64,000 bases of DNA from Trichocoleus desertorum ATA4-8-CV12 (GCA_019358975.1 JAHHIL010000001.1:186001-250000), one strand, 5' to 3'; shown: positions 11,918-27,307, counted from the first letter of the stretch. Translations and numbers: made by a program. Notes: generated from the sequence alone by a model not told the origin.

Positions 11918-13567
11918 CTAACCAGTTGGCAGAAAAAGAGGGCGGTAATAGAAGAGGGTGCTGACCACCGCGATCGCCACAATGACTACCCAAATTACAA
12001 ATAAGACTCTTGCAATTGGAGCGAGGGCTGGGTTCTTAATTGCTTGCTGGCTGAAGCTAAATGGTAAAAAGGTAATCGAGTTATATTCCTTGAGATAATT
12101 GCTGATTTTAGGGGGTAACTCGCTAGAGCAGCGGGTTGAAATAGAACTATTGGCTAAGCAGGCAATGTTGATCACGCGCTGAGCCAGACGGAATTGTAGA
12201 CGCGAGCCAGGAGCCCCAACTAGAGTCTGAGTTTCCTCCATTTGTCTCGGCATTGCCACTGAAGCAAGTTGAATGGCGATCGCCAAAACAATCAAACCGC
12301 GCATCACCCAAGCTTTTAATCTTCGACTGTAGAGCAAGCGCTGAGCAAAAAGAGCTAGCAGAGGTAGTAGTAAGAGATGGACAGACGTGACGTGGTATCT
12401 GGCTCCCCAAGCTGCATCTCCATGCCAAAACACAAAGCGACTGTAAGCCAAGAGATGCAATCCCAGGTTCATCACCCCAACGGCTAAGTACCACTTGAGA
12501 AAGGGATGAAGCTTTCGCCAAAGCACCACGCCTAGAATTAGACAAGGTACGAGTAGGGGATCATAAAGAAAAATGCTTTTGGCTGGAGAGAAAAGCGCTC
12601 CTAAAATGCCCACGGAGGGATCGTTGATCCAGGGGTAATTTGCTGGTAGATCAGGCAACCCATTCCACATGGGGTCTGTGGTTAACTGTTGCTGCTCGAC
12701 GATTTTGCCAGTTGCCCAAAAGCCGCCATACCGCCAGTCATCCAGAATGCGACTCACTAAAGCTAAAGGGATAAAGCCTGCTACCCATAGCAGCAATGCT
12801 TGGAACGTTTTGGCGATGCTACGGCTTTGGTAAATCTCACACCCAGCCAGAAAGAGTAATACGGTGAGTCCATGTAAAGTGCTGGTGGAACGGATCAGTA
12901 AGGCTCCGCCGAGCGCTAAACCACTAAGAAGTGCAAAATAACGCTGCCTTTGATGCACATAAGCAAGGGCAGTAGCGTATCCAAGTGTTACCAACAGCAA
13001 TAACTGGTTATTTTGTTGAGGCACTTGGGCGTAGTGCAGCATAGTGGTCGCGAGGAACAGAGTGATACTGGTCAGTCCAGCAATTTGCTCGTCAAAGTTA
13101 AACAAACGGAGGAGCCAGAAGCCAGAGACAACCGCAGCTACATTCAGGGGAATAAAGATCAGAAAACTAACGGCTAAGGTGCGCCATTGCAAGGAATCGA
13201 TCGCGGGGAATGCGCGATGTAGTTGAGTGCCAACCCAGTCTCCAGGCAACATCAACATCGATTGCCCAACCTCGTAGGCAATATATCGCTTCTCTCCTTT
13301 ACCTATGACGCCGAACCGAATGTCTCCCCGGACTTTGGGTGTCATGTCAGGCGTGAGAATGACTTCTTCAGTGCCCGTCCACCAAGCATGCGCCATCTGG
13401 AGTCTCAGGTCTGTGTCTAGCCCTAAAGTGTCCGAGGTGACGGCGATCGCCCACAACCAGGTCACGAGCGCCAGAGTCAACGCTGCTTTAACAACGGTTT
13501 TGCGGGTACGGGTGGCCTGAGAATGTTGTTCCGTAGCCAATTTATTGGGTCGGCTGAGCCATTGCAT
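11918..13567 (-). CDS. Polytopic membrane protein, GT-C glycosyltransferase-like
   Basis: A 549-residue membrane protein with about eleven hydrophobic segments. The first extracytoplasmic loop carries LGLDTDLRLQMAHAWW, resembling the loop of GT39-like proteins. I use the ATG at 13567 because GGAG stands nine bases before it. A longer frame with a TTG start at 13645 has no ribosome site. The layout is similar to the rightward protein at 25670-27307 (first loop, then a long hydrophobic core and a polar C-terminal loop), which suggests related roles. It lies between the GT2 gene and the last GT-C gene of the leftward run. Function beyond a probable lipid-linked sugar transferase is not known. 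Confidence 0.65.
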   Translation of the reverse strand: MQWLSRPNKLATEQHSQATRTRKTVVKAALTLALVTWLWAIAVTSDTLGLDTDLRLQMAHAWWTGTEEVILTPDMTPKVRGDIRFGVIGKGEKRYIAYEVGQSMLMLPGDWVGTQLHRAFPAIDSLQWRTLAVSFLIFIPLNVAAVVSGFWLLRLFNFDEQIAGLTSITLFLATTMLHYAQVPQQNNQLLLLVTLGYATALAYVHQRQRYFALLSGLALGGALLIRSTSTLHGLTVLLFLAGCEIYQSRSIAKTFQALLLWVAGFIPLALVSRILDDWRYGGFWATGKIVEQQQLTTDPMWNGLPDLPANYPWINDPSVGILGALFSPAKSIFLYDPLLVPCLILGVVLWRKLHPFLKWYLAVGVMNLGLHLLAYSRFVFWHGDAAWGARYHVTSVHLLLLPLLALFAQRLLYSRRLKAWVMRGLIVLAIAIQLASVAMPRQMEETQTLVGAPGSRLQFRLAQRVINIACLANSSISTRCSSELPPKISNYLKEYNSITFLPFSFSQQAIKNPALAPIARVLFVIWVVIVAIAVVSTLFYYRPLFLPTG

Positions 13568-13672
13568 TGAGATGAACTCCAGTAAATTTTCAGGGGATTC
13601 AATACCGTCAAGCAGTTCAGTGATTAGTCCTGCCTTTTCAGGCAATTGATCTCAGTGCACCCTAATTTCGCC

Positions 13673-14659
13673 TTACTGGTGGAGCAATTCATGGGTTCCT
13701 GGCGCTGAGTAAGATAGGTAAATCATGCGTTTCGCTTCCTGCCGTCCTCTCGCCACTGAGTCCAAAACCATGCCGCAGGTTAAGCTCAAGAAAGCCAGCA
13801 GCATAATAGATGTTGAGAGGATCGCAGTCGGAAATCGAGGAACCAATCCTGTCTCCCAAAAAGTGGTCAGAACGGGGATACTTAAAAGAATGGATGTAAG
13901 AGCCAAAAGTAAAAAGATTAGGCCGAAAAATAGTAGAGGCCGTACTTCCTTAAACAGCAGCAAAGCAGTGCCGACAATGCGCCAACCATCACTGAAAGTT
14001 TTGAGTTTGCTGGTAGAACCAGGTGGGCGAGATTTATACCAGGTGGGCTCTTCAGCAAAAGGCATTTTCAGCTCCAAGGCGTGAACTGTAAACTCAGTTT
14101 CAATCTCAAAACCATTCGATAGCGCTGGAAAAGATTTGACAAAGCGGCGTGAGAACACTCGATAACCCGAAAGCATGTCGGAAAATTGGGCTCCGAACAA
14201 CATCCGGACAAAATAGGTCAGCATGAGATTGCCACCGCGATGTCCACGTCGATAAGCAGCTAACTCGCTAGGTGTGCTGCGCCGTACTCCTACCACCATA
14301 TCTAGCTGATGATCCAGTAAGCGAGTGACGAGATGCCTGACTGCGCCTGATTCGTAGGTGTTGTCGCCATCTACAATTACATAGGCATCTGCTTCAATGT
14401 CGGCAAACATCCGCCGAACAACATTGCCTTTGCCAGGTACAGGTTCATAGCGAACGATCGCGCCTGCTGCACTTGCTATTTCTGCTGTATTGTCAACTGA
14501 ACGATTGTCATAGACATAAACCTTGGCCTCTGGCATAGCAGTTTGAAAATCCGCCACCACCTGAGCGATCGTCAAAGCCTCATTATGGCAGGGGACTAAG
14601 ACCGCAACCCTGGATGTTAGGCGAGCCGTAGGCTGAATGGTCGATAGTTGATCCAGCAT
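13673..14659 (-). CDS. GT2-family glycosyltransferase, polyprenyl-phosphate sugar synthase-like, with C-terminal membrane anchor
   Basis: Residues 18-230 form a GT-A domain of the DPM1/DPG-synthase type: VLVPCHNEA at the start, DNRSVDNT, and a metal-binding DGDNTY at about 97-102 in place of the commoner DxD variants. Two hydrophobic helices at about 242-265 and 278-300 anchor it in the membrane. Such enzymes load a sugar from a nucleotide donor onto polyprenyl phosphate at the cytosolic face. That would supply the donor for the two GT-C proteins encoded next. It begins 23 bases after the HTTM-DCC gene. Sugar specificity is unknown. Confidence 0.85.
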   Translation of the reverse strand: MLDQLSTIQPTARLTSRVAVLVPCHNEALTIAQVVADFQTAMPEAKVYVYDNRSVDNTAEIASAAGAIVRYEPVPGKGNVVRRMFADIEADAYVIVDGDNTYESGAVRHLVTRLLDHQLDMVVGVRRSTPSELAAYRRGHRGGNLMLTYFVRMLFGAQFSDMLSGYRVFSRRFVKSFPALSNGFEIETEFTVHALELKMPFAEEPTWYKSRPPGSTSKLKTFSDGWRIVGTALLLFKEVRPLLFFGLIFLLLALTSILLSIPVLTTFWETGLVPRFPTAILSTSIMLLAFLSLTCGMVLDSVARGRQEAKRMIYLSYSAPGTHELLHQ

Positions 14660-14682: not shown

Positions 14683-16509
14683 CTATGGTTGATTAGGCTG
14701 AGAGCAGGACTGTTGCCAGGCTTGGGTTTTCTCTACGGTTTGGGGTTGTCCGGGTGGAACTGTTCTCTCCTTCATGAAGTAAACCTCTAAACTTCGGATC
14801 TGTTTTGCACCTTGATGTCGAGCGTTCCAGTTGCGGCATAGATACTCACCGTAGTAGGGATACAGCTTTTTACCCATTGCTCGGTTGAGATTAATCAAGT
14901 AGCTGCGCCATTGCATATTGCGGTAAATGGCATTCCGCACCTTTAAGCTAGGTTTGTCGTAGGACACAGGCGCACCATCTTTAAATACATCTACTTCGGT
15001 GCCATCGGCTAACTGACCCGGAATCACATACCAACCATCATCTCTGGGTGGAGCGGGGGCGAAGATACTCCATGACTGATTAAGGCGGGTGACTCGGCTA
15101 ATTCCATCCACAGAATTTAGGGTTCTGCGATTAAAAACATCGGGAGCAAAGCTTCTGAGATTCCAAATAAAGGTATAAGCAAATAGCAATAAGGTAATCA
15201 GATTCAGTGGCCGCGACGATCGCACTTCTAAAGGACGGAATTTGAGGGGTTTGGTGAACTTTCCGGCAGTACGACGATTGGTGGCAATTGTTTCATAAAA
15301 CTTAGTTCCCACAGACATCACAGGCCGCCACCGCAGCACCGGAGCCAAGATCTTGAACACAGGGGAAAGAGAACAAATATAGGCGATCGCCTCAAACTTG
15401 TAATGTCTACGTTCTTGCCAATCTACGACAACCCAAGAGTTGTAGGTTTGCATATCCGCAAAGATGCTAGGATCTTCCTGCGCCATGAGTAAGGGGATAT
15501 TGGGTAGCAACAGAAAAGTTCGGAGCAAATGCACTACTTTCTTGCAGAAGCCGCATTCACGGTCGTAGTAAATCTGCAATCCAGCTCGCTCTGCTGTATA
15601 CAGGCGTTTCCCCCAACTGTCCCAAACATCGCTAGGGATAAATGCTAGCCAGCAAAAGACACTCAACATTGGGAAAATACCGATATGAAGGCTGGCACCA
15701 AAACCGATATGTAACAAGATAAACGTGATAATGGTGCCACATCGGAACCAGGTGGTGCGGAACGGCACAAAGAGAAACAACGGCCCTATCCACTCCAGTA
15801 GCAGAGTGCTTAAGGTAAAAAAGGTAAGCAAGGGCGGGAAGTTCAGCAGAAATTTACCAAACTGAGTGGCGTATTGGTCAAAACTCAAGGCGTAGTAGAC
15901 AGCATCGCCTTGAGGCCACCAAATTGGGCTGGTAGTTTTGAAAGCAGCAGAAAACCAATAGACAAAGCAGATTTGTAAAGTGAGTGCCAGAGTAGCGCCA
16001 GAAAGTATCCGTTTGGGTAGAGGTTTAGAAGAGGTGTTGAGGGCGCGATCGATAGAATAATAAGCGCCTAGTGGTAAAAACATGCACCAAAACAGTAAGG
16101 CGCGCAATACATCATCTGCCGCAAAGATCAGAGCAGGATTGCGGTTATGGAGGGAGATGATCAGTGCCCAAGAAGCGATCGCGGCGAGTCGGGTTTGGTA
16201 TCCCACCAACAGAGCCAAGGCGATTAGAGCAGCGCTTAAAAAGATTAAACCTTGGACGAGGGGCTGACCACTGATTAGGTGAATAGACCAATAGCCTGGT
16301 TTCCAAAGGGCTTCTGTGAGTAGCGATCGCGGCAAGACACCAGCGTCTGTGTAGTGTGCGACCAGATCCCCGGAACGGATGATTAAATCTGTGAGGATCA
16401 GCAGCGCTAAGCCAATGCGAAACACAGCTAATGAGCGCAGGTCTAAGCCGAACAATTCCTCTAGCTTGGTTCTCAGTAGGGATTTAGGTTTTTGCGCCTC
16501 AGCCACCAT
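14683..16509 (-). CDS. HTTM (gamma-carboxylase-like) membrane protein fused to a DCC thiol-oxidoreductase domain
   Basis: A 608-residue fusion. Residues 20-300 are a polytopic HTTM domain (opening LDLRSLAVFRIGLALLIL), related to the membrane part of vitamin K-dependent gamma-carboxylase. Residues 312-400 form a DCC/DUF393 domain with YYDRECGFCKKVV, the CGFC pair being at about 319-322. A final membrane segment near 430-450 precedes a soluble tail of about 150 residues. ATG at 16509 follows GAGG at six bases, and a TTG at 16515 is the alternative. The pairing of an HTTM channel-like core with a thioredoxin-like redox domain suggests a membrane redox or carboxylase-like reaction. The actual role here is unknown. 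It sits between the NDH-2-like gene and GT2 gene in the operon. Confidence 0.8.
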   Translation of the reverse strand: MVAEAQKPKSLLRTKLEELFGLDLRSLAVFRIGLALLILTDLIIRSGDLVAHYTDAGVLPRSLLTEALWKPGYWSIHLISGQPLVQGLIFLSAALIALALLVGYQTRLAAIASWALIISLHNRNPALIFAADDVLRALLFWCMFLPLGAYYSIDRALNTSSKPLPKRILSGATLALTLQICFVYWFSAAFKTTSPIWWPQGDAVYYALSFDQYATQFGKFLLNFPPLLTFFTLSTLLLEWIGPLFLFVPFRTTWFRCGTIITFILLHIGFGASLHIGIFPMLSVFCWLAFIPSDVWDSWGKRLYTAERAGLQIYYDRECGFCKKVVHLLRTFLLLPNIPLLMAQEDPSIFADMQTYNSWVVVDWQERRHYKFEAIAYICSLSPVFKILAPVLRWRPVMSVGTKFYETIATNRRTAGKFTKPLKFRPLEVRSSRPLNLITLLLFAYTFIWNLRSFAPDVFNRRTLNSVDGISRVTRLNQSWSIFAPAPPRDDGWYVIPGQLADGTEVDVFKDGAPVSYDKPSLKVRNAIYRNMQWRSYLINLNRAMGKKLYPYYGEYLCRNWNARHQGAKQIRSLEVYFMKERTVPPGQPQTVEKTQAWQQSCSQPNQP

Positions 16510-16568
16510 ATTCAACCTCAGAAAAATCTTTTATTAAGTTCGGGTTTTTTGATTTATTTGAATCTGTT

Positions 16569-17912
16569 TTAGTAAGGCAAACGTCCAGGGTAGTGAGCCA
16601 CGGCTCGTCGCGATCGCCTATTTAACCGCTTCCAAACTTGGCGAACAGGTTGGCGAGCGGGAGTTGGCAAGCACCGCAGGAGACCACTAGCAAGCCAATG
16701 TCTGATGACACGGAGACGATGGCGCAGGGTTGGCATTCGCTGTAAATAAATCCAATGCCGAATCACACAGGCGATCGCTCCCTGTAGGGTGAGACCAAAG
16801 CTCCAGACCACCGCTGAGTTGGTGCCCAGCGTCAACATTTCCCCTAAATGGAGGTAGCGGAAGGAAAGCAGTGACTTGTCTGTGATTGCAGCACGGAGAT
16901 TGCGAGCCGCACAACTGGCTTGTTGATAAGCAGCTTGAGCTGTGGCGGGAACTGGCTGTCGTCCTACAGTTTGAATCGCTGCCAGATCTCCTAAAGCAAA
17001 TACTTCTGGGTAATCTGCTAATTGCAGGGTTGGTGATGTGAGCAGTTGTCCCTGCGAATTCTGTTGGCAAGGGAGATCTCTTACCCAATCTAGAGTTTGA
17101 GTCCCAGCAGTCCACAACACTAGATCTGTATCTATCGTGCGAGTTTGCTCTTGATGAACAAGTGTCAGGTGATGGGCCGCGATCGCCTCAATGCCCGTTT
17201 CCAACTCAATCTGTACCCCTCTGCGTTGCAGCGCTTTGTAGGCCACTGCTCGACTTGCCACTGAAAAGGTTTTCAGGATGCGATCGCCCCGCTCAATCAA
17301 CCGCACCTGCCCTCTGGCCTTTAAGCGATCTGCCAGCTTACAAGCGAGTTCCACACCATTGGGGCCACCCCCGACCACAGCGACTCGAATCTGGTGTTGC
17401 CCTGATGCTTCCAAAAAACGCAGTCTCTCCTTTAAATGCATCGCATCAGCCAAGGAGCGGAAAGGAAAAGCATGTTCAACTGCACCCGGAATGGTATCAA
17501 GTCGGGTTTCTCCGCCTACTGCTAAGACCAAGTAGTCATAGATCAGCGATTCACCATTTTGAAGTCGGACACGACGGTGCGCTAAATCAACGCTGGAAAC
17601 CGCTTCCTGCCACAGCTCAACGTTAGTGTGAGCCAAAAGTTGTTGATAGGTGGGGGCAATTTCCCAAGCTTGGAGTTCACCCGTCACCAGCTCATAGAGG
17701 AGCGGTGTAAACAGAAAATGATCTTTCGGTTCAACCAACCTAATTTGATAGTTTTTGAACTTTTTGCCTAGAGTGCGCTGCAAGTATAAGGCGGTGTAAA
17801 GCCCCCCAAAGCCTCCTCCCAAAATGCAAATCCGGATAGGATTGACGTTTAGAAAAGGGGTAGGAAGGGTTTCAGGTTGATCTGCAAGCCTATCTTTTTT
17901 GCAGTACATCAT
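16569..17912 (-). CDS. Type II NADH dehydrogenase-like FAD/NAD(P) oxidoreductase
   Basis: About 447 residues from the ATG at 17912. A TTG at 17987 would add 25 residues that look unlike the family. The FAD-binding motif ILGGGFGGLYTALYL lies near the N-terminus and the NAD(P)-binding motif VAVVGGGPNGVELACKL about 150 residues later. A second FAD-contact segment FALGDLAA comes near residue 305. The C-terminal third ends in an amphipathic or membrane-associated stretch and a highly basic tail. NDH-2 enzymes pass electrons from NAD(P)H to membrane quinone. Its position between the SGNH-like and HTTM-DCC genes suggests a redox job inside this pathway rather than general respiration. That is inference. 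Confidence 0.85.
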   Translation of the reverse strand: MMYCKKDRLADQPETLPTPFLNVNPIRICILGGGFGGLYTALYLQRTLGKKFKNYQIRLVEPKDHFLFTPLLYELVTGELQAWEIAPTYQQLLAHTNVELWQEAVSSVDLAHRRVRLQNGESLIYDYLVLAVGGETRLDTIPGAVEHAFPFRSLADAMHLKERLRFLEASGQHQIRVAVVGGGPNGVELACKLADRLKARGQVRLIERGDRILKTFSVASRAVAYKALQRRGVQIELETGIEAIAAHHLTLVHQEQTRTIDTDLVLWTAGTQTLDWVRDLPCQQNSQGQLLTSPTLQLADYPEVFALGDLAAIQTVGRQPVPATAQAAYQQASCAARNLRAAITDKSLLSFRYLHLGEMLTLGTNSAVVWSFGLTLQGAIACVIRHWIYLQRMPTLRHRLRVIRHWLASGLLRCLPTPARQPVRQVWKRLNRRSRRAVAHYPGRLPY

Positions 17913-17998
17913 TATTAGCGAATTAGGGTGAGTGTCATGGGGGACTGACGGAGTGGAACTTGTGACTGCGATTTGGCTTAGCCCCAACAGACTGATGC

Positions 17999-18961
17999 CT
18001 ATTGAGGTTGTTGGGTGAGCGGTGATGCTGCTATCTGATCTCCCATCACTTGCTTAAATTGCTGGGCTAGTTCGGTAGAGCGTATCCTTCTGGCAGGTTG
18101 ATTCAAGTGATAATGCGTATCCGCAAATAAGCTAGAGTCGGCTTTGAGATTTAAGGAAGCCTTGTCGTAGAGAACAGGGGCGATCGCCTCTAGCTGGGTC
18201 GCAGTTTTTTGCACGTTTTCAATCGTTTGTGGGTCATCGCTGGCATACAGCCAAGGCAACCCTAAGACTAGCGTGGCTCCTTCGGCTTCTACCTCTTGGC
18301 GAAACTTGGCGATGCGCTCATAGGCATAGTCAGAGATGGGCTCTTTGATCTTCATCTGCCACCACTTTGACTTGGTACGCTGCTTAAGAACAGTCGGATC
18401 GCCATTCTGCGTAATGGGGTCAGAATAATAACCTGTGAGTTTACCCTTCTCCACAATATCTAGGGATGATTTGGTCAAGGCTCGCAAAGTGGGTGCTCCC
18501 ACCATCAGCGTGTCTTGAGCCAGTTGTTTGGCAGGAATGCCTCCCAGTCCAGGCTGACCGATCGCGATACTAAACTGCCCAGAGCGATCGCCAAAGCCAT
18601 CGTCATCTAGCAGTAGCAAATATTCTGGAATCAGCAGAACGATATCTCCCGGTCGAATCTTATCCTTGATGCTAGGGATAATCACATCGAGTCCCACAGG
18701 GCCATCCACGCCAAGATTGAGAACAGGGATGCCTAGTTCTTGCTGCATCACCCCCGCATCTACTGTGTAATGAGCGCCAGAACCTCCTAAAATTAAGACT
18801 CGTCGCGGCCCCTGAACCTGATCTGCCAAGGCCATCTTTTGCTCATACATCATGCGCAACCAGCTTAGCTCACCTCCATAGCGGGCATTGTAGAAGTAGC
18901 CAGCCGTCCAAGCTAAACCTGCGATCGCGACCCAACTAGTGAGCTTGAGAAGTTTCTGCAT
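17999..18961 (-). CDS. SGNH/DltD-like membrane-anchored protein, MBOAT partner
   Basis: A 320-residue protein with one N-terminal membrane anchor (residues 7-23) and an exported domain. LILGGSGAHYTVD holds a candidate nucleophile Ser at about residue 61. DTHYHLN at about 281-287 gives the Asp-His pair expected in SGNH hydrolases. The ATG overlaps the stop of the MBOAT gene by one base (TAATG), so the two are translationally coupled. MBOAT plus SGNH-type partners are known from DltB/DltD and AlgI/AlgJ systems, where the SGNH protein takes part in acyl transfer outside the membrane. I infer the same role here. No family name beyond SGNH-like can be claimed. Confidence 0.7.
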   Translation of the reverse strand: MQKLLKLTSWVAIAGLAWTAGYFYNARYGGELSWLRMMYEQKMALADQVQGPRRVLILGGSGAHYTVDAGVMQQELGIPVLNLGVDGPVGLDVIIPSIKDKIRPGDIVLLIPEYLLLLDDDGFGDRSGQFSIAIGQPGLGGIPAKQLAQDTLMVGAPTLRALTKSSLDIVEKGKLTGYYSDPITQNGDPTVLKQRTKSKWWQMKIKEPISDYAYERIAKFRQEVEAEGATLVLGLPWLYASDDPQTIENVQKTATQLEAIAPVLYDKASLNLKADSSLFADTHYHLNQPARRIRSTELAQQFKQVMGDQIAASPLTQQPQ

Positions 18962-20424
18962 TAGAACTCAAAGTAAATAAACTGAGAGGGAGTGTTTGCA
19001 GCCAGTAAGACTGTCAAAGCAAGTAAGGTTCGCGACACCCAAGGCGAAGTCAGCAAGTCATACTCAGATTCACGTTTTTGCCAAATTGCTACATGCTCAA
19101 GCAACAGCACTAAGGTTGCCAGCCCCAAAGTGAAACCGAGAACGACAGCCTCGTTAGTACTAAACGAGCTAAGCGCACTGCTAATGTTGCTAAAAGAGTA
19201 GGCTTCCGGGTTAACTAAGGTCTGTAGCTTGGTGCCTAAACGGCGTACATTAGTTTCCATGAAGAACAGACATCCGAGGATGACTGATCCGAAGGTCAAC
19301 GCCCAAGAAATAAACTGGGGCATGAGCAATCGCTGGCCCACGAAGCTATAGAAAGGCCGCCCAGCATAGCGGAGGACAAGCAGCAATAGACCGTGATAAG
19401 CACCCCAAAGAATGAAGTTCCAAGCGGCTCCATGCCAAAAGCCGGAGAGGGTAAAGGTCAGAAACAAAAAGAAAGGAGCCCACTGTTTCTTAGAACCCAT
19501 TAGCGGCAAAAACACATAATCCCGGAACCAAGTACTGAGGGTGACATGCCAGCGCCGCCAGAACTCGTTGATGCTTTGGGATGTATAAGGCGCGAGAAAA
19601 TTAGTTGTCAGCTTCACCCCGACAAACTTGGCAAGTCCTAGCGCGATGAAACTGTAACCTGCAAAGTCAAAATAAATTCTTAAAGTAAATAGGTAGGCCG
19701 AAAACCAAACTAGCCAAGCATTACTGGCTTCTTCTAAATCGATGTAGGGAGAGATATTATCAGCGAGCACAAACTTCATGAACAATCCGAGCGAGAGCCA
19801 TCGGAGACCTGCCTCAAAGTTGTCCAAGGTAAATTTAAACCGAAATCCTTCGATCTGGGGAAACAGATCGGCGCGGCGTTCAATTGGACCTGCTACAACC
19901 TGGGGAAAAAAGGAGACAAAATTGACATAGTCAATTACCCCGATCGGGCGCTTCTTCTTGCTGGTAAAGGAGTCAACGACAAAAGCAACCATTTGAAAGG
20001 TATAAAAGGAAAGACCTGGCGGGATCGCTCCCATACCTGGAATTTCCCCTCGTGACCTCCAGCTAGCAGCTATCCCTGGCAATAGTAGCCCCACTACATC
20101 TTCGACAAAGAAGTTGAGGTACTTGAAGTAAGCGAGGATGGCAATATCGATCGCAATCAAGCTGGTGGCAATCATCTTTGCTTCCCACCCTTGACGACGT
20201 AGCATCAGACGCACCAGGACGTAGTTGAAAATAATTTCAAAGATAAAGATGATAAAACTAGAGCGCGATGCATTGACAAATAAGAACAATGACATCGCGG
20301 CTAAGCCAACACTGTCGAAAGCAGGTCGCCACAGGTTGAAGTGCTGGCCGATAAAGCGAACCGCGAAGAAAGGGATACTGAAGAGTATTAGTACCCACCA
20401 GAAGGAGAATTCCGAAAAGTTCAA
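18961..20424 (-). CDS. MBOAT-family O-acyltransferase
   Basis: A 487-residue polytopic protein with the AlgI/DltB-type MBOAT signature. WRRWHVTLSTWFRDYVFLPL has a His at about residue 293, and LSGFWHGAAWNFILWG has the second conserved His at about 331. A VAGPIERR segment typical of the family is near residue 177. GGAGG eight bases before the ATG supports the start. MBOAT proteins move an acyl group from a carrier through the membrane onto an exported polysaccharide, lipid or protein. The upstream ACP, 147 bases away, is the likely acyl donor and the overlapping SGNH-like protein the likely partner. Confidence 0.92.
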   Translation of the reverse strand: MNFSEFSFWWVLILFSIPFFAVRFIGQHFNLWRPAFDSVGLAAMSLFLFVNASRSSFIIFIFEIIFNYVLVRLMLRRQGWEAKMIATSLIAIDIAILAYFKYLNFFVEDVVGLLLPGIAASWRSRGEIPGMGAIPPGLSFYTFQMVAFVVDSFTSKKKRPIGVIDYVNFVSFFPQVVAGPIERRADLFPQIEGFRFKFTLDNFEAGLRWLSLGLFMKFVLADNISPYIDLEEASNAWLVWFSAYLFTLRIYFDFAGYSFIALGLAKFVGVKLTTNFLAPYTSQSINEFWRRWHVTLSTWFRDYVFLPLMGSKKQWAPFFLFLTFTLSGFWHGAAWNFILWGAYHGLLLLVLRYAGRPFYSFVGQRLLMPQFISWALTFGSVILGCLFFMETNVRRLGTKLQTLVNPEAYSFSNISSALSSFSTNEAVVLGFTLGLATLVLLLEHVAIWQKRESEYDLLTSPWVSRTLLALTVLLAANTPSQFIYFEF

Positions 20425-20571
20425 TTAATCCATCCTCCCCAAGCTTAAGTTCATCCGTTCCCAGCCCTATCAAGGTTGATCCGTAGATTATTCGGTAGGA
20501 CTATGCGAGAGCCTTCACAACCATGACTGATTATTTGAATCAGCAATGAAGCCAGGCTCCCCATCTGCAAA

Positions 20572-21000
20572 CTAGCTACCACTAATACGGTTCCACAAGC
20601 CACCCCAACCAGAAGACTTCTCTGCTTTCTCTTGAGGAGCAGTTGTAGCCGTCTCTATGTTGACGTTGTTCAGGGCTGCTGCCACGTCAAACTCTTGCAC
20701 CAAGAAAGTAGCGGCTTTCTCAATGGTGGGGTAATCCCACAATAGGGTGGAAGGAAGTTCCAACTCTAGCCAATCTTCTAGCTCTCCTACGAGAGTTACG
20801 GCATCAATGGAGTCTAAGCCGTAGCGAGTGAGCGGCTCTTGAACCTTAATGTTGTTGGGATCAAGGGATAACTGCTTTGCCAATTGGCTGACCAGCCACT
20901 GTTGAATTGCTTCTACTGGAGAAGTTTCTGTGGTTTGACTGCCTAAATCGATTGGGCTCAAAACTTCGCTAGGCTTGTAGCTGGAGTTCTGAAGTTGCAT
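20572..21000 (-). CDS. Acyl carrier protein with N-terminal extension
   Basis: A 142-residue carrier protein. Residues 30-107 form a carrier domain with phosphopantetheine attachment site YGLDSIDAVTL, Ser at about residue 64. A polar N-terminal extension of about 28 residues and a 35-residue tail flank it. It overlaps the end of the acyl-CoA-dehydrogenase-like gene by 32 bases, implying coupled expression. The long form with LDSID and DYPTIE resembles stand-alone carriers that work with fatty acyl-AMP ligases rather than the housekeeping AcpP. It is expected to receive a fatty acyl group from the ligase encoded two genes upstream. Confidence 0.88.
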   Translation of the reverse strand: MQLQNSSYKPSEVLSPIDLGSQTTETSPVEAIQQWLVSQLAKQLSLDPNNIKVQEPLTRYGLDSIDAVTLVGELEDWLELELPSTLLWDYPTIEKAATFLVQEFDVAAALNNVNIETATTAPQEKAEKSSGWGGLWNRISGS

Positions 21001-22777
21001 TGGTTTGATCCCCTTGTACTTTAGATGTTGCTAGTTGAAAAGGAACGATGGAAAAGAGTTTGTCTTCCATGTGGAGCTGTAGAAGCTCCTGAGCGATCGC
21101 TTCATCGTTAATTCGAGAAGCAAGACTGTGCGCCGGGCGGAATGAGAGGGCCAGCCTTCTGAGGCAGAGAGCTAGCCATTCACCCTTGGCAAAAAAGGCA
21201 CCCAAATGATGGCGGTTGTGGAGCCACATATGCACACAAGATGCTGCGGCATGTAAGGTGCAATAGTGCTTAGCTAGGTCGAACAACTCTGGTGATTGGT
21301 CGTGCCCAAACTCAAATGTAGAGTTCTCTAAGCTCTGATCTAGAGCGCTGAGTTCTTCTAAAAGGAGATGAGTGAACCCACCAATTTGCTGCAATACGTC
21401 AGAATCGAGATCGGGATCTGTTTCCAGGCTTTGCAGCTGTGTCAGAGCTAATGCCAAACCTTGCAGGACATCATCTGCACCGCGACTAAACAGCTCCAAT
21501 TTGCGACCGTCAAATGTGGGAACTGACTGGTCTAGGGAGAAACAAGCTGCTAAACGAGCTTGTAAAGCTTCCAGATTGCGGCCTTTCTGGCGCGATCGCT
21601 GTTTTGCCAGTTGTCGCAGTTGCAGCAGCAGGGCATGTAAGTTAACCACAGTGCTGCCATCAAACACGCTGATGATGGCGTTGTCTCTCACGACTTTTTG
21701 GAAGATGCCCCAGTCATGAGCGTCGCGCATATAGTACCGAGCCCCCAGCACCACCGAAACATTCGTCACCATGCTCTCCAGCGTGGTTGTGACGAAGTAT
21801 TTCACTACTGCCGACCAAACGCTGAACTGCTCAGGGATGACATGAAAACCTCTGGCAGCTCCAATGGTGGCGCAATCACAGATCAAAATATCTAGAAAAG
21901 CATCAACCAAAGTTCGCCGAGGCTGGGGCATATCAAAGACAGTCTTGCCGTAGAGCTTACGGCCCAGTGCAAAGTTGAGTGTGGTTCTGAGGGCGGTATC
22001 TGCGGCTCCCTGAGAAAAAGCGGCACAAAGGGCGCGAGTAATTTGGAAGCCTTTGAGCGCCCATTCTAGACCTGCGCCCTCTGCCCCGATGCGGCTAGAC
22101 TCTGGCACAAAGCAGTCTTGAAATCCAATGCCGCTCATATCAGAACCACGGATGCCGTGAGTCAGAATTTTGGGCAGGTTGTAGTAAGTATTGGGATCAA
22201 GTTGGCTTTTCTCCACCATGAACAGAGATAAGCTGCGCGCTCCACCTGATTCATCTGTTTTGGCTAAGACAAAGGTGACACCGGAGATCGTCGCTCGATT
22301 AATTGGCCACTTTTCTCCATTGAGGAGATAGCCTCCGGCCACTTTGGTGGCTTGTACATCACTGGCGACCAGGTCGCTGCCATGTGCCCTTTCGGAATAA
22401 GCCAGACACATCGCGCCGTTGTGATCTTTGATAAAGCTAGCCAACCGCTGTTTTTGTTCATCTGTGCCTGCCATCCAAACCAGATAAGACCAAAACAGCG
22501 TGGTGAAGCTGATAGCAGTTGTCAAATCTCGACGAGACATGACTCGGACGAAAGCAACAAACTCCTCAAAGGAGGTAAACTCACCCCCACATGCAGTTGG
22601 TATGTAGTAATGATTGAGCTTCCAGTTATAGAGCCAATTAAGCAGATCTGTAGGAAACTCCTCTTGCTCGTCCAGTTCTACAACCTGCTGGAAAGACATC
22701 AGGCTATCTGGATTACAGGGATCTCCTAAATCTTGTTCAAGGGCTTCCGCGACCCAGTATTGTTTGAGTGGATGCAT
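20969..22777 (-). CDS. Acyl-CoA dehydrogenase-like flavoprotein (acyl-ACP oxidising?)
   Basis: 602 residues from the ATG at 22777, which follows AAGGAG at six bases. The frame itself opens earlier, at 22819. Residues 1-400 have the acyl-CoA dehydrogenase layout, including CLAYSERAHGSDLVA near 124-138 in the FAD/substrate region. At the place where many family members have the catalytic Glu (YEG), this protein reads VFDGST, with Asp at about residue 373. About 200 extra residues follow the usual C-terminus. It lies between the fatty acyl-AMP ligase and the ACP gene, so it probably introduces a 2,3-double bond into a carrier-bound chain. Whether the Asp suffices as base is unknown. Confidence 0.8.
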   Translation of the reverse strand: MHPLKQYWVAEALEQDLGDPCNPDSLMSFQQVVELDEQEEFPTDLLNWLYNWKLNHYYIPTACGGEFTSFEEFVAFVRVMSRRDLTTAISFTTLFWSYLVWMAGTDEQKQRLASFIKDHNGAMCLAYSERAHGSDLVASDVQATKVAGGYLLNGEKWPINRATISGVTFVLAKTDESGGARSLSLFMVEKSQLDPNTYYNLPKILTHGIRGSDMSGIGFQDCFVPESSRIGAEGAGLEWALKGFQITRALCAAFSQGAADTALRTTLNFALGRKLYGKTVFDMPQPRRTLVDAFLDILICDCATIGAARGFHVIPEQFSVWSAVVKYFVTTTLESMVTNVSVVLGARYYMRDAHDWGIFQKVVRDNAIISVFDGSTVVNLHALLLQLRQLAKQRSRQKGRNLEALQARLAACFSLDQSVPTFDGRKLELFSRGADDVLQGLALALTQLQSLETDPDLDSDVLQQIGGFTHLLLEELSALDQSLENSTFEFGHDQSPELFDLAKHYCTLHAAASCVHMWLHNRHHLGAFFAKGEWLALCLRRLALSFRPAHSLASRINDEAIAQELLQLHMEDKLFSIVPFQLATSKVQGDQTNATSELQLQA

Positions 22778-22839
22778 TGCATTCTCCTTGGAGCGATCGC
22801 CAGCCGATCGACAGTACAACTACAGCAGAGCTGTAAGCT

Positions 22840-24672
22840 TTAGTGAGTGGGTTGTATGCGTTGTAGGAGAGAGTTGACATCTCCTTGTAAATGTCGAAAA
22901 TTAGACCGAATCTGCGGATTCTCGCTCCAGTCTGCTAAAACTCCGAGTTCTCCAGCTAAGAAGCTAGATCGACAAGCTTGACGCTGAATCTTACCGCTGG
23001 AGGTTTTGAGGACATTGCCCGGCTTCACTAGAACCACTGCATAAACTTGCAGCTCATGTTGCTCAGCGATCGCCTGCCGAATCTCGGCGATGACTTCATC
23101 TACATCCAAGTTTTGGGCTTGTCGCTCTACTTCTTGCACCACAATCAGCCTTTCTTCGCCCTCAAACTCGACTGAGAAGGCAGCACCGTAGTCGGGACGC
23201 AAGGCTGGATGAACTTCCTGCACCGTCCATTCAATATCTTGAGGATAGTGGTTGGTGCCTCGGATAATGATCAAGTCCTTGATCCGACCCGTGATAAACA
23301 ACTCCCCATCCTGAATGAACCCTAAATCCCCGGTGCGGAGGAAGGGGCCTTCGCCACTATCGTTTAAGTAAGCTTGGAAGGTAGCTGTAGTATCCTCCGG
23401 TCGTTGCCAGTAGCCTTGAGCCACGCCAGGATCAGATACCCAGATCTCCCCCACCTCATCAGGTGCACAACGATTTAGAGTTTGAGGATTGGCGATCGCC
23501 ACTTGAGTCTCGCAGACTAACTGCCCACAACTGGCAATTGTCCGAACCCCTTCCTGTTGGTTAGGCGGTGCAATCGCAATGCGATTCTTTTCGATTGCTG
23601 CGGCCTCAACCGTACAAATTACAGGCGATGTGTTGACAGGGCTGGTGGAAACTAGCAAAGTTGCTTCAGCGAGCCCGTATGCTGGGGCAAAGGTGTCCCA
23701 CTGAAAGCCGCAAGGAGCAAACTTTTCGTAAAAGTTCTCCATCACTCTGGGGTTAATCGGTTCAGCAGCATTGCCTGCCCCTTGCCAACTGCTGAGATCC
23801 AGCGTTTCTAATTGAGTCGGAGTAACTCGCCGGACACATTGATCGTAGGCAAAGTTAGGAGCTTGGCTATGCGTGGCACCATAGCGAGAGATTGCTTGCA
23901 GCCACCGGACAGGTTGCTTGATAAAAGCAAACGGTGACATCACATAGCAAAGTGTGCCGTTGTAAAGCGGTTGGGTGAGCCCTTCCACCAAGCCGTAATC
24001 GTGAAAATAGGGCATCCAAGTGACAGTCACACTCTCTGGGGTATATCCACAAGCCCTTTGCAGATAGGCCGAGTGAAACATTAAATTCTTATGGCTGATC
24101 ATCACCCCTTTGGGTGTGGAAGTTGAGCCAGAAGTATATTGCAGATAAGCGAGAGTGTTGCTGTCAACGTCAGGGTCTTGCCACTGATCTGCCAAGCTGA
24201 GATCAACTTGCTCAGTGTCAATCCAACGCATGCTTTGAAACTCAGGAAACTCCAACCCCGCCTTTGCCAAAATATCAAAAATGCGGCTGGTGGTCAGCAC
24301 AATCGAAGCCTGCGCATCCTTAACGATCGCGCGTAAACGAGGTAGGGTGCGCTTTAGCCGACTACCATCAGGTGGTGGCACTGGAATCGCAATCACGCCC
24401 GCATAGAGACACCCACAAAAAGCCGCAAGTACTTCTAGTCCTTGGGGGTATAGCAGTAAGGCCCGCTCTCCCTGAGCTTGGTGCTGTTGCAGCAAAGCGC
24501 CAATGGATCGGGCCTGTCGATCCAGTTCAGCGTAGGTTAGGGCTGGGCCTTCTGTCTTGCCATCAATCAAAAACGTATAAGCTTGCTGTTCAGGTTGCTG
24601 CTGCGATCGCCAACGCAGCAACTTGATTAATGTAGAAAACTCAACAGTGGGTTGAGAAAGACATTGGGGCAT
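22840..24672 (-). CDS. Fatty acyl-AMP ligase (FAAL)
   Basis: A 610-residue ANL-superfamily enzyme. The ATP-binding loop YTSGSTSTPKG is at about 179-189, the adenine-contact region FAPAYGLAEATL near 329-340, and the hinge region TGDLGFIQDGELFITGRIKD near 450-470. Length and motifs match FAALs, which make acyl-AMP from free fatty acids and hand it to an ACP instead of CoA. The ATG at 24672 has GGAG seven bases upstream. It is the first gene of the leftward run, with the ACAD-like gene 62 bases on and the ACP after that. No NRPS or PKS gene is present in the window, so it is not obviously a lipopeptide starter. Confidence 0.9.
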   Translation of the reverse strand: MPQCLSQPTVEFSTLIKLLRWRSQQQPEQQAYTFLIDGKTEGPALTYAELDRQARSIGALLQQHQAQGERALLLYPQGLEVLAAFCGCLYAGVIAIPVPPPDGSRLKRTLPRLRAIVKDAQASIVLTTSRIFDILAKAGLEFPEFQSMRWIDTEQVDLSLADQWQDPDVDSNTLAYLQYTSGSTSTPKGVMISHKNLMFHSAYLQRACGYTPESVTVTWMPYFHDYGLVEGLTQPLYNGTLCYVMSPFAFIKQPVRWLQAISRYGATHSQAPNFAYDQCVRRVTPTQLETLDLSSWQGAGNAAEPINPRVMENFYEKFAPCGFQWDTFAPAYGLAEATLLVSTSPVNTSPVICTVEAAAIEKNRIAIAPPNQQEGVRTIASCGQLVCETQVAIANPQTLNRCAPDEVGEIWVSDPGVAQGYWQRPEDTTATFQAYLNDSGEGPFLRTGDLGFIQDGELFITGRIKDLIIIRGTNHYPQDIEWTVQEVHPALRPDYGAAFSVEFEGEERLIVVQEVERQAQNLDVDEVIAEIRQAIAEQHELQVYAVVLVKPGNVLKTSSGKIQRQACRSSFLAGELGVLADWSENPQIRSNFRHLQGDVNSLLQRIQPTH

Positions 24673-25669
24673 CTCTAGACTCCGCAAGGATAGAGCCAAC
24701 TCTAGGGAGTTCCTCGGTTATGCTCTGACCAAAGTTGGCATTTTAAGCTTTGTTCACTAAAAAACTTATCTAAGCGTTACTTGTTAAATAACACCTAAGT
24801 GGTTTCTCGTAAGTGAATACCGAACTTAAATGCAGAGTCTGGCATATCGAGTTTGGGCATTACTAGTCCTTTGACTCATTTTCATCAAAAAAAAATCTAG
24901 TCACTCCTCCAAAGAGTGATATTTTTCCTGAGCAAACCCCTCAAAGTATTGATTTTGGGATGAGTTAACTTAAGCGATCTGCTGAGTCCTTACTTAAATG
25001 AATTGTGAAGTTTCTGTATAGCTACGGATTTTTGTTGTCCAAAATACAGCTGACTCTGGTAAATAGATGCTCAGAGTAAGTAACGAAGTCTCGGTAATTA
25101 CAGGAAAACTTCTTAATAAAAAAATGCTGATTGCTAGAGATTGACATATTCTCAGTTCTGCGATCGCCTGATTTAGCCTTGATCTACCTGCTAAAAGTTT
25201 CGTTTTGGTCGCCATTAGGAGCTTTAGTTGCGAATCAGCCAAAGCATCTATTCGTAAGCTTCACTCTTATTTCGAGAGAATAGTCGAGAGGACAGTAAAA
25301 ACGCTGACAGTCTGGGCTATGAAGATAAAGCTTCTCTAAAGCCTATTTTTGTGCAGATGCAATCTGGGACAGTATAAACGTGTGGGTAAAGGCTTTACCT
25401 TCTACGGTCAAGATGACAGTAAATTTGCTAGATGTTTTGATCTGAGGATTTGTCAAAAGAAGTGTTAATTGACAAATTAAGGTAGGTGAAATCCAAGCCA
25501 TGCGTACATTCACTGGTTTGACAAAGCTGTGACCAATTTTTCCGGAGTTATGGGCTGAAACAATTGATATCTATAAGTGATATGTCATGATCTGCTCAGA
25601 AAAATATGAGTTTTTAAGTTGACATCAAAATCAGACCTTAGAGCTAGGGTATTCCTAGGCAGGGAAACC
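24673..25669. promoter_or_regulatory. Divergent intergenic region between two halves of the glycan/acyl locus
   Basis: About 1 kb with no convincing gene. It should contain promoters for the leftward FAAL operon and the rightward GT-C operon. It is AT-rich and carries the hairpin listed at 24887-24926. A leftward 82-codon frame at 24994-25242 has no ribosome site or recognisable family and is not called. Confidence 0.5.
24887..24926. terminator. Terminator-like hairpin in the divergent region
   Basis: TCACTC (24901-24906) pairs with GAGTGA (24914-24919) around a 7-base loop. A run of nine A precedes it and TATTTTT follows, so either strand could give a hairpin plus U-run. No recognised gene ends here, so it may stop a leader transcript, end a small RNA, or be chance. 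Confidence 0.4.
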
Positions 25670-27307
25670 ATGAAGATTCCTCGATTGAATATTCCGCTCA
25701 CCGTCATTTTTATTGGCATTCTATTTTCTTTATGCTTACAAGCTTTAGTGCCAAATGATGTCTTTTACAGTGGTGATGGTGGGTTGAAAGCTTTGTTGGC
25801 GAAACAATTTAGTGCTGGAAACTTTCACTTTGATCTGAGGCTACCTGTAAATACCTGGATACAAAGCCTGTGGGACATTGGGCTATATCCCTTTCGGCCT
25901 CCCTTTGTCTATAACGTAGAGAACCGTTACTTTGTTACTTTCCCTTTTACCTTTCCGCTGGTAACTGCTCCTTTTCATGCTCTGTTGGGTTTTAGAGGAC
26001 TCTATGTTGTTCCTTTGGTTTCTACTTGGGTCCTTTGGTTTAGTTTTTATTTAGCCTGTCAACGCTTGAAGCTAGGTAAGATTAGTACTTCGATCGCTCT
26101 AGTTGTCCTAATTTTTACAGCTCCTCTGTCCTTGTATAGTGCGATGTATTGGGAGCATACATTGGCTGTTGCTTTAGCGTTTCAAGGCTTAGCTTTAGCG
26201 CTAGTTCCTCCTGTTAAAGGTCTTTCTACTAGAGATGCAATTTTCAGTGGAGCATTGATTGGCTTAGCTGTATGGTTTAGACCAGAGTTTTTATGCTTGG
26301 TTGGGATCATGCTTGTGTGGCTAGTTGCAACTCAAACCAAACAATTAAAAAAATTTAATTTTGTTGGGCAGAAGGCGATCGCGATCGCGGTTAGTATGAT
26401 GCTGTCAGTGGCAATATTTTTTGGTATCAATCTGCTGGTTTATCAGCATCCTTTAGGAATTCATTCTGTTCAAATCGTTGAAGAATTCACTTTGAGCCAA
26501 CGCTTGCGAACGGCGTTAGATAATCTTAAGCAGTTGCTATTTAGTCTTACTTACTATTTTCCAGTTGTTTTCTTTTCTCTAATCTATACCTGTCTGGCCT
26601 TTTTAGGAGGTAAGTTGAAACTGACTCCTAAAATGCAGGTGATTTTGCTCATCAGCATTTTATTTGTTCTGGCCGTGCCTCTGATTGTGCCTGCCGGTGC
26701 AGGTGGTAAACAATGGGGACCACGTTTCTTACTAATTACGGTTCCACTGATTGCTTTGCTAGTAGCGATGCAACTGAAATCGTTAATGCAAACTCATCAA
26801 CGAAACTTGCAGTTGGCCTTCATGGGACTGCTTGCTGTATTTGGGTTGGTGGGCTTGTATATCAATATCTTCTTAGGAACGGTCGATTTAGCCCGTAACT
26901 ACCAGCTCACTGTACCCGCAGTAGCAGGATTGCGATCGCAACCAAGCTCCATCATTGCGATGTCTCATGAGTATGTAGCCCAGGCGTTAGCGCCCTCACT
27001 GCCTGAGAAAGCATTCTTCCTCACTGAGGCAAACCAAGATGTGAAGCAGCTGAGCACCACGCTATTGTCTCAGGGATACCAAAAGTTTTTGTATGTTTGT
27101 TATCCCTATCGGGACTGTAATACTCCTAAAGCAAGTCTAGATGATTTAAAGTTTTCGCACTCAAATCAACCTTTTACAATGCAGTTCTCGGATTTGGGAA
27201 AGTTTGGTAAGTATCCCATCTACGAAGTTTCTATTCTTCAAAGTTCTAGCATTTCCTCTTCTAGTCACCTAACCACCCCGTCTAACCCCATTAGAAATGA
27301 GGCATGA
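25670..27307 (+). CDS. Polytopic GT-C-like membrane protein
   Basis: 545 residues from the ATG at 25670, which follows AGGGA at four bases. An earlier TTG at 25619 is less likely. It has about eleven hydrophobic segments. The first exported loop carries VFYSGDGGLKALLAKQF, with acidic residues where GT-C enzymes place theirs, followed by an aromatic loop RYFVTFPFTFPL. A C-terminal polar domain with CYPYRDCN follows the last helix. It has the same general plan as the protein at 11918-13567. It is the first gene of the rightward run and overlaps the next gene by 11 bases. A probable lipid-linked sugar transferase of unknown specificity. The gene is AT-rich compared with its neighbours. Confidence 0.65.
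   Translation: MKIPRLNIPLTVIFIGILFSLCLQALVPNDVFYSGDGGLKALLAKQFSAGNFHFDLRLPVNTWIQSLWDIGLYPFRPPFVYNVENRYFVTFPFTFPLVTAPFHALLGFRGLYVVPLVSTWVLWFSFYLACQRLKLGKISTSIALVVLIFTAPLSLYSAMYWEHTLAVALAFQGLALALVPPVKGLSTRDAIFSGALIGLAVWFRPEFLCLVGIMLVWLVATQTKQLKKFNFVGQKAIAIAVSMMLSVAIFFGINLLVYQHPLGIHSVQIVEEFTLSQRLRTALDNLKQLLFSLTYYFPVVFFSLIYTCLAFLGGKLKLTPKMQVILLISILFVLAVPLIVPAGAGGKQWGPRFLLITVPLIALLVAMQLKSLMQTHQRNLQLAFMGLLAVFGLVGLYINIFLGTVDLARNYQLTVPAVAGLRSQPSSIIAMSHEYVAQALAPSLPEKAFFLTEANQDVKQLSTTLLSQGYQKFLYVCYPYRDCNTPKASLDDLKFSHSNQPFTMQFSDLGKFGKYPIYEVSILQSSSISSSSHLTTPSNPIRNEA

Follow-up and report, generated by a model that had tools for sequence, protein, structure and literature searches.

To our knowledge, the pairs AlgI-AlgJ/AlgX, PatA-PatB and WssH/WssI transfer acetyl groups and employ no dedicated ligase or carrier protein, and every characterised MBOAT-SGNH pair that we know of is a transferase system. 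We likewise know of only one well-understood member of the HTTM family, the human vitamin K gamma-carboxylase (VKGC). In the Dlt system, the MBOAT protein DltB binds the carrier protein DltC via helix HC (Met302, Val305, Ile306 and Met309; PMC11035591). The rotihibin cluster of S. scabies carries the gene order FAAL-ACAD-ACAD-ACP, and its ACADs have been proposed to desaturate the acyl tail, which is drawn as cis-2-decenoyl (PMC8552735). In VKGC, K218 acts as the base in deprotonating vitamin K hydroquinone (PMC12589487).

The gene set described here is built from known modules, namely lipopeptide-type acyl loading and an MBOAT-SGNH acyl-export pair, together with an unexpected VKGC-like/NDH-2 arm. 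It lies in the window, the whole 64,000-nucleotide stretch of Trichocoleus desertorum DNA that was analysed. The first-pass annotation had known of no described pathway with exactly the five genes that it listed, and a search of open-access literature text (subscription literature lay outside it) likewise found no description of the FAAL-ACAD-ACP-MBOAT-SGNH-NDH-2-HTTM-DCC set. The set is real, is conserved across genomes and, within the open literature searched, is undescribed. We propose that it is a seven-gene acyl-export module, in which an acyl-ACP-fed transmembrane acyltransferase acts on an exported glycan or lipid and is accompanied by a linked redox arm (probability roughly 0.57).

Gene content and inheritance of the cassette

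Five adjacent leftward genes, FAAL-ACAD-ACP-MBOAT-SGNH, run head-to-tail on the minus strand at 17999-24672 as first annotated, with the overlaps given there: 32 bases between ACP and ACAD (20969-21000) and one base between SGNH and MBOAT (18961). While these five genes are present, the span assigned to the unit was too short. Two more downstream genes (14683-17909), one NDH-2-like (16569-17909) and one HTTM-DCC (14683-16515), had been overlooked, and the cassette is a set of seven genes, larger than first noted. The genes of the region are:

22840..24672, minus strand: FAAL, stand-alone fatty acyl-AMP ligase (ATG at 24672; the mechanical ORF opens at TTG 24699)
20969..22777, minus strand: ACAD-fold flavoprotein, proposed acyl-ACP dehydrogenase (ATG start; Pfam ACAD N, M and C domains)
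20572..21000, minus strand: ACP with GLDSID phosphopantetheine site (PP-binding 2.3e-15)
18961..20424, minus strand: MBOAT acyltransferase with His293 and His331 (TTG start; PF03062 2.2e-26)
17999..18961, minus strand: SGNH/GDSL-fold protein, membrane-anchored and probably extracytoplasmic, with Ser61, Asp281 and His283/His285 (AlphaFold model and Foldseek)
16569..17909, minus strand: second, divergent NDH-2-like pyridine-nucleotide oxidoreductase (Pyr_redox_2; conserved start Met at 17909, ORF opens at 17987)
14683..16515, minus strand: HTTM (vitamin K carboxylase-like), DCC thiol-disulfide and C-terminal domains, with Lys193 and CGFC (DCC1-like 2.3e-9)
13673..14659, minus strand: peripheral DPM1-like GT2 glycosyltransferase (PF00535)
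11918..13645, minus strand: peripheral GT39/PMT-like multi-pass glycosyltransferase (weak PMT_2 match)
25619..27307, plus strand: possible accessory multi-pass GT-C-like protein, divergently oriented from FAAL (8/13 cassette genomes, 1 other)

At 7702-10212 and 4490-7423, downstream on the same strand, lie genes for a GH116 glucosylceramidase-like protein and a DUF4953 met-zincin; neither showed conservation with the cassette in the loci examined.

The first-pass annotation had made its Dlt analogy depend on the five genes co-occurring elsewhere, which they do. They lie side by side in 20 cyanobacterial genomes (the window's own, L009-L018, L020-L023, L029, L107-L109 and L115; L019 duplicates the contig of L011 and was left out of the count), including Anabaena azotica, A. 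subtropica, A. lutea, A. catenula, Sphaerospermopsis and Coleofasciculus, and in distant cyanobacteria the order runs on into the NDH-2-like and then the HTTM-DCC gene. All surveys used the same 244 cyanobacterial genomes (completeness at least 90%). The ACAD was found in 14 of these and the SGNH protein and MBOAT orthologues in 13 each, with the SGNH and MBOAT genome sets identical to one another and to the ACAD set minus one variant (G244). The 13 genomes span 10 genera and six families. Fisher's exact test for co-occurrence gave 1e-20 by species and 4e-13 by genus; because the genomes are related, the 13 occurrences are not independent events. FAAL orthologues are present in 13/13 cassette genomes and strong HTTM-DCC orthologues (at least 670 bits) in the same 13; outside this strong set, HTTM-DCC matches comprised a 539-bit relative in G165, weaker second copies in two genomes and distant relatives elsewhere. 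Pairwise protein distances among the seven families correlate at 0.84-0.94.

The cassette is divided in several genomes. G117, G119, G250 and G252 have MBOAT-SGNH-NDH on one contig stretch and ACAD-ACP, FAAL and HTTM elsewhere, so that in G117 the cassette is split over four sites. G163 and G127 carry ACAD-ACP-MBOAT-NDH plus SGNH-HTTM, G132 carries FAAL-ACAD-ACP-MBOAT plus SGNH-NDH, and G151 has all five genes plus NDH-HTTM. Since order is conserved in distant genomes and the phyletic patterns match, the five-gene set is not due to chance; moreover, genes that are co-retained though scattered over the chromosome argue for a common function, not just hitchhiking.

Variant arrangements were also observed. 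In G244, which contains no SGNH orthologue, a cluster at L117 (1101-11110) combines two FAALs, the ACAD (696 bits), an ACP, an AONS-like aminotransferase class I/II PLP enzyme and an SDR, and has the look of a carrier-bound pathway towards a sphingoid-type base. In Microcystis-like genomes (L118, L112-L114) the ACAD-ACP pair sits away from FAAL and MBOAT, beside genes that look like cytochrome oxidase and protoheme farnesyltransferase.

Proposed acyl flow and the MBOAT branch

From the observed gene identities, active-site residues, linkage and co-occurrence, we infer an acyl donor, a direction of acyl flow, a probable desaturation, an acceptor, a product and a role for the redox arm. The FAAL would adenylate a free fatty acid and load it onto the ACP, and the ACAD would probably oxidise the acyl-ACP to 2,3-enoyl-ACP. 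The MBOAT would take the acyl chain from the ACP at the cytoplasmic side and present it across the membrane, where the anchored SGNH protein would transfer it to a hydroxyl of an exported glycan or glycolipid, yielding an O-acylated surface molecule. The NDH-2-like and HTTM-DCC proteins would constitute a linked quinone/thiol redox arm, with the NDH-2 quinol most likely used by the HTTM protein in a step of this pathway, either maturation or a redox reaction. A new kind of pathway for modifying the envelope, in which 2,3-unsaturated acyl chains bound to the carrier protein pass via the MBOAT onto an exported acceptor, and a VKGC-like HTTM enzyme using quinol from the dedicated NDH-2 and thiols of its own DCC domain then matures the product, is the boldest reading and an unlikely one.

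Both MBOAT histidines recognised earlier, H293 and H331, are invariant (37/37 copies). Searched against solved structures, the cassette-MBOAT profile had DltB as its sole match (1e-28), and the window protein scored 177 bits against the DltB equivalog TIGR04091, whose cut-off of 375 places it outside that family. The DltC-docking helix HC is absent from the cassette MBOAT, with the V305/I306 equivalents falling in a gap and a short VFLPLMG present instead. With the same profile, AlgI-type MBOATs of other loci (LYIPLGG) scored 172-230 bits and a DltB fragment 112. These scores and the missing helix therefore indicate a separate MBOAT branch, and without the long HC helix, carrier docking must differ from that of Dlt. 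Direct contact between ACP and MBOAT is thus a prediction against which the missing helix counts.

The greater score for AlgI-type proteins than for the DltB fragment, together with the lack of the docking helix and the glycosyltransferases that are sometimes adjacent, would also suit two separate acylations: acyl-ACP would acylate a cytoplasmic glycolipid, and the MBOAT-SGNH pair would attach another kind of acyl group, a short one, to that same exported product, akin to AlgI-like acetylation. Against this, ACAD-ACP-MBOAT stay adjacent even where SGNH and FAAL lie elsewhere (L024-L027, L110, L111), and the set holds no conserved cytoplasmic acyltransferase. We consider this alternative doubtful and favour a single transfer of the ACP-borne chain.

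For the acceptor, the GT2/GT39 genes at 11918-14659 proved common to same-genus genomes and L016 only (a GT39/PMT-like homologue lies in the L016 neighbourhood), and a reading of the substrate from these neighbours was dropped. No universal acceptor-synthesis gene was found in the set. The nearest candidate is the GT-C-like gene at 25619-27307, present in 8/13 cassette genomes compared with 1/231 others and thus enriched, not universal; it adjoins SGNH-HTTM in G163. This enrichment and adjacency point weakly to a glycan or glycolipid acceptor.

At L021, L022 and L226 (8131-10760), a second MBOAT (206-230 bits) with an AlgI-type motif directly follows the HTTM gene; in L022 and L226 a further gene comes after it, possibly encoding its SGNH-like partner.

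The NDH-2-like and HTTM-DCC genes

While one generic NDH-2 copy is widespread, a second copy was found in 13/13 cassette genomes and in only four others. The gene adjoins the cassette in most loci, and most cassette copies separate from the generic copies in the NDH-2 tree. The second NDH-2 is missing from two Anabaena cassette loci/genomes, suggesting that this part is dispensable or replaceable.

The HTTM-DCC protein contains a DCC thiol-disulfide domain with a CGFC motif. Its N-terminal part aligns with Pfam HTTM members; PF05090 was matched on homologues, and no direct PF05090 match was obtained with the window protein itself. A group profile of HTTM-DCC proteins matches VKGC (3e-12), and Lys193, kept in 35/35 copies, aligns with the KK pair of VKGC, at its second Lys. 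An AlphaFold model (pLDDT 51) was too poor for fold comparison, and the HTTM call rests on profiles. By these alignments the cassette HTTM domain is distantly related to human VKGC and retains a Lys where VKGC has its catalytic one. The position of the Glu-binding His160 of VKGC is occupied by Ala133, making Glu carboxylation unlikely. Since NDH-2 enzymes produce quinol, an HTTM enzyme supplied with quinol is a natural reading.

The redox genes could instead provide the acyl acceptor. The NDH-2-like enzyme would make a quinol whose hydroxyl the MBOAT esterifies with the ACP-borne fatty acid, and the HTTM and SGNH proteins would work on the resulting quinone product. Cyanobacteria are known to contain acyl-plastoquinol. 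In Crocosphaera-type loci the MBOAT stop codon is overlapped by a dedicated NDH-2 paralogue, and the VKGC-like HTTM domain retains the quinol-deprotonating Lys. Acylation of a quinol nevertheless seems improbable, as it needs no membrane-anchored SGNH protein, MBOAT-SGNH pairs elsewhere act on exported polymers, and the NDH-2 gene is missing from the two Anabaena loci.

A separate occurrence was noted at L229 (5954-8393) in G033, where an NDH-2 gene sits beside a truncated HTTM-DCC gene and no other cassette gene is present in the genome; it is possibly a remnant, or a separate use of the redox pair.

The SGNH protein, proposed acyl loading and comparison with known systems

Sequence searches with the SGNH protein found no match in Pfam, NCBIfam or the PDB. 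A model built by AlphaFold from 13 cassette members (pLDDT 75) matched rhamnogalacturonan acetylesterase, YxiM, TesA and the OatA C-domain in Foldseek, and weakly DltD (E 6e-3). In line with the Ser and Asp-His residues first annotated, S61, D281 and H285 are kept in 29/29 copies and H283 in 28/29. The cassette thus pairs an MBOAT with conserved His and an SGNH-fold partner with Ser and Asp/His, the features of a two-part O-acyltransferase. The SGNH protein could also be an esterase, not a transferase. As an esterase or thioesterase it would release a secreted free unsaturated fatty acid, serving as signal or surfactant, with the MBOAT as acyl-chain exporter. The Foldseek matches, mostly esterases and TesA, are in keeping with such release, and cis-2-enoic acids are known bacterial signals; the transferase function of the characterised MBOAT-SGNH pairs noted above argues against it, and we regard it as quite improbable relative to transfer onto an exported acceptor. 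In Coleofasciculus LEGE 07092, a tandem second SGNH gene (L022:9751-10806) encodes a protein 47% identical to that of the window, in which His283 is replaced by Val.

The adenylating enzyme is of fatty acyl-AMP type, as annotated at the outset: it comprises an AMP-binding domain (4.5e-66) and a DIP2-like C-domain in Pfam, its best NCBIfam matches are FAAL models, and its nearest solved structures are FAALs (e.g. 7r7e at 5e-196, 3kxw and FadD32). The phosphopantetheine Ser noted in the ACP is kept in 33/33 copies. The ACAD has a C-terminal extension of ~200 aa and an FDG(S/T) motif that aligns to the YEG of solved ACADs, placing Asp373 at the position of the usual catalytic Glu; this base position is Asp in 44/44 copies. 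ACADs encoded beside FAAL genes in Streptomyces and relatives also carry an FDG(S/N) motif; in the second ACAD of these clusters, GHA takes its place. The genes for FAAL, FDG-type ACAD and ACP occur together, as in a FAAL-ACAD-ACP loading set. Because clade and motif are shared with the ACADs linked to FAAL genes in lipopeptide clusters of Streptomyces, homology supports, and does not prove, the earlier suggestion that the ACAD may make a 2,3-unsaturated acyl chain. Asp in place of Glu counts against acyl-ACP desaturation, though the clade has it in common.

The Dlt analogy was also to fall if the ACP loaded an NRPS or PKS encoded nearby. It survives: contig C1 of the window's genome (G000), which carries the cassette, has no condensation or KS domain, and two cassette genomes, G017 and G132, lack both NRPS condensation domains and type I PKSs, their ketosynthase matches being ORFs of at most 432 aa, the size of FabF/FabH. 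Condensation domains and one large PKS ORF are encoded on other contigs of the window's genome. That FAAL, ACAD and ACP load lipopeptide precursors for an NRPS/PKS encoded elsewhere, with MBOAT and SGNH as unrelated neighbours, fits the nearest non-cyanobacterial ACAD relatives, which lie in Streptomyces lipopeptide-type clusters, and the condensation domains of 11/13 cassette genomes, but it is highly improbable given contig C1 and the 244 genomes, where MBOAT and SGNH never occur without ACAD, and as a general explanation it is ruled out because G017 and G132 have neither NRPS nor type I PKS.

If the acyl-export reading is true, cyanobacteria use acyl-ACP to attach long and possibly unsaturated fatty chains to molecules beyond the membrane; we know of no acyl-ACP-fed pathway of that kind, and the open literature searched yielded none. 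Dlt logic would then extend beyond D-alanine and Gram-positive walls, FAAL-ACAD-ACP sets without an NRPS would gain a role, and a bacterial HTTM protein would be tied to a defined gene set in which its function is testable. As the set is also present in Microcystis- and Crocosphaera-like genomes, besides Anabaena, model strains should be available.

Each module resembles a described system and departs from it. The HTTM-DCC protein shares the HTTM fold region with VKGC and the SdpB family, including the Lys193 alignment, whereas its fused DCC domain, new C-terminal domain and Ala133 set it apart from VKGC. As in AlgI-AlgJ/AlgX, PatA-PatB and WssH/WssI, an MBOAT is combined with an exported SGNH-fold partner, but the MBOAT motif is VFLPLMG, not the LYIPLGG of AlgI-type proteins. 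With the Streptomyces lipopeptide loading sets (rotihibin RthH/RthI/RthK; ramoplanin type) the cassette shares FAAL, ACP and an ACAD from one clade (FDG(S/N) motif, 35-41% identity); those sets usually have a second, GHA-type ACAD and an NRPS, while the cassette has just one ACAD and, in place of an NRPS, an MBOAT-SGNH pair.

With Dlt (DltA-DltC-DltB-DltD) the cassette has in common an AMP-forming ligase, a carrier protein, an MBOAT and an anchored SGNH protein, with the His pair and Ser/Asp-His kept. The Dlt-like relay proposed by the first-pass annotation holds as a functional analogy, since ligase, carrier, MBOAT and SGNH are inherited together with intact active sites; it does not hold by family. 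No DltA model was among the best 25 NCBIfam matches of the ligase, whose best NCBIfam and PDB matches are FAALs, and for the SGNH protein neither Pfam nor NCBIfam gave a match to the DltD family, the resemblance to DltD being at the fold level only. As the MBOAT scores far below the DltB cut-off (177 against 375 bits) and lacks the long docking helix HC, true Dlt membership is ruled out. The cassette further differs in its FAAL-type ligase, in the added ACAD, NDH-2 and HTTM-DCC proteins and in its Gram-negative-type hosts. By analogy, the cassette appears to work like Dlt, and is not Dlt.
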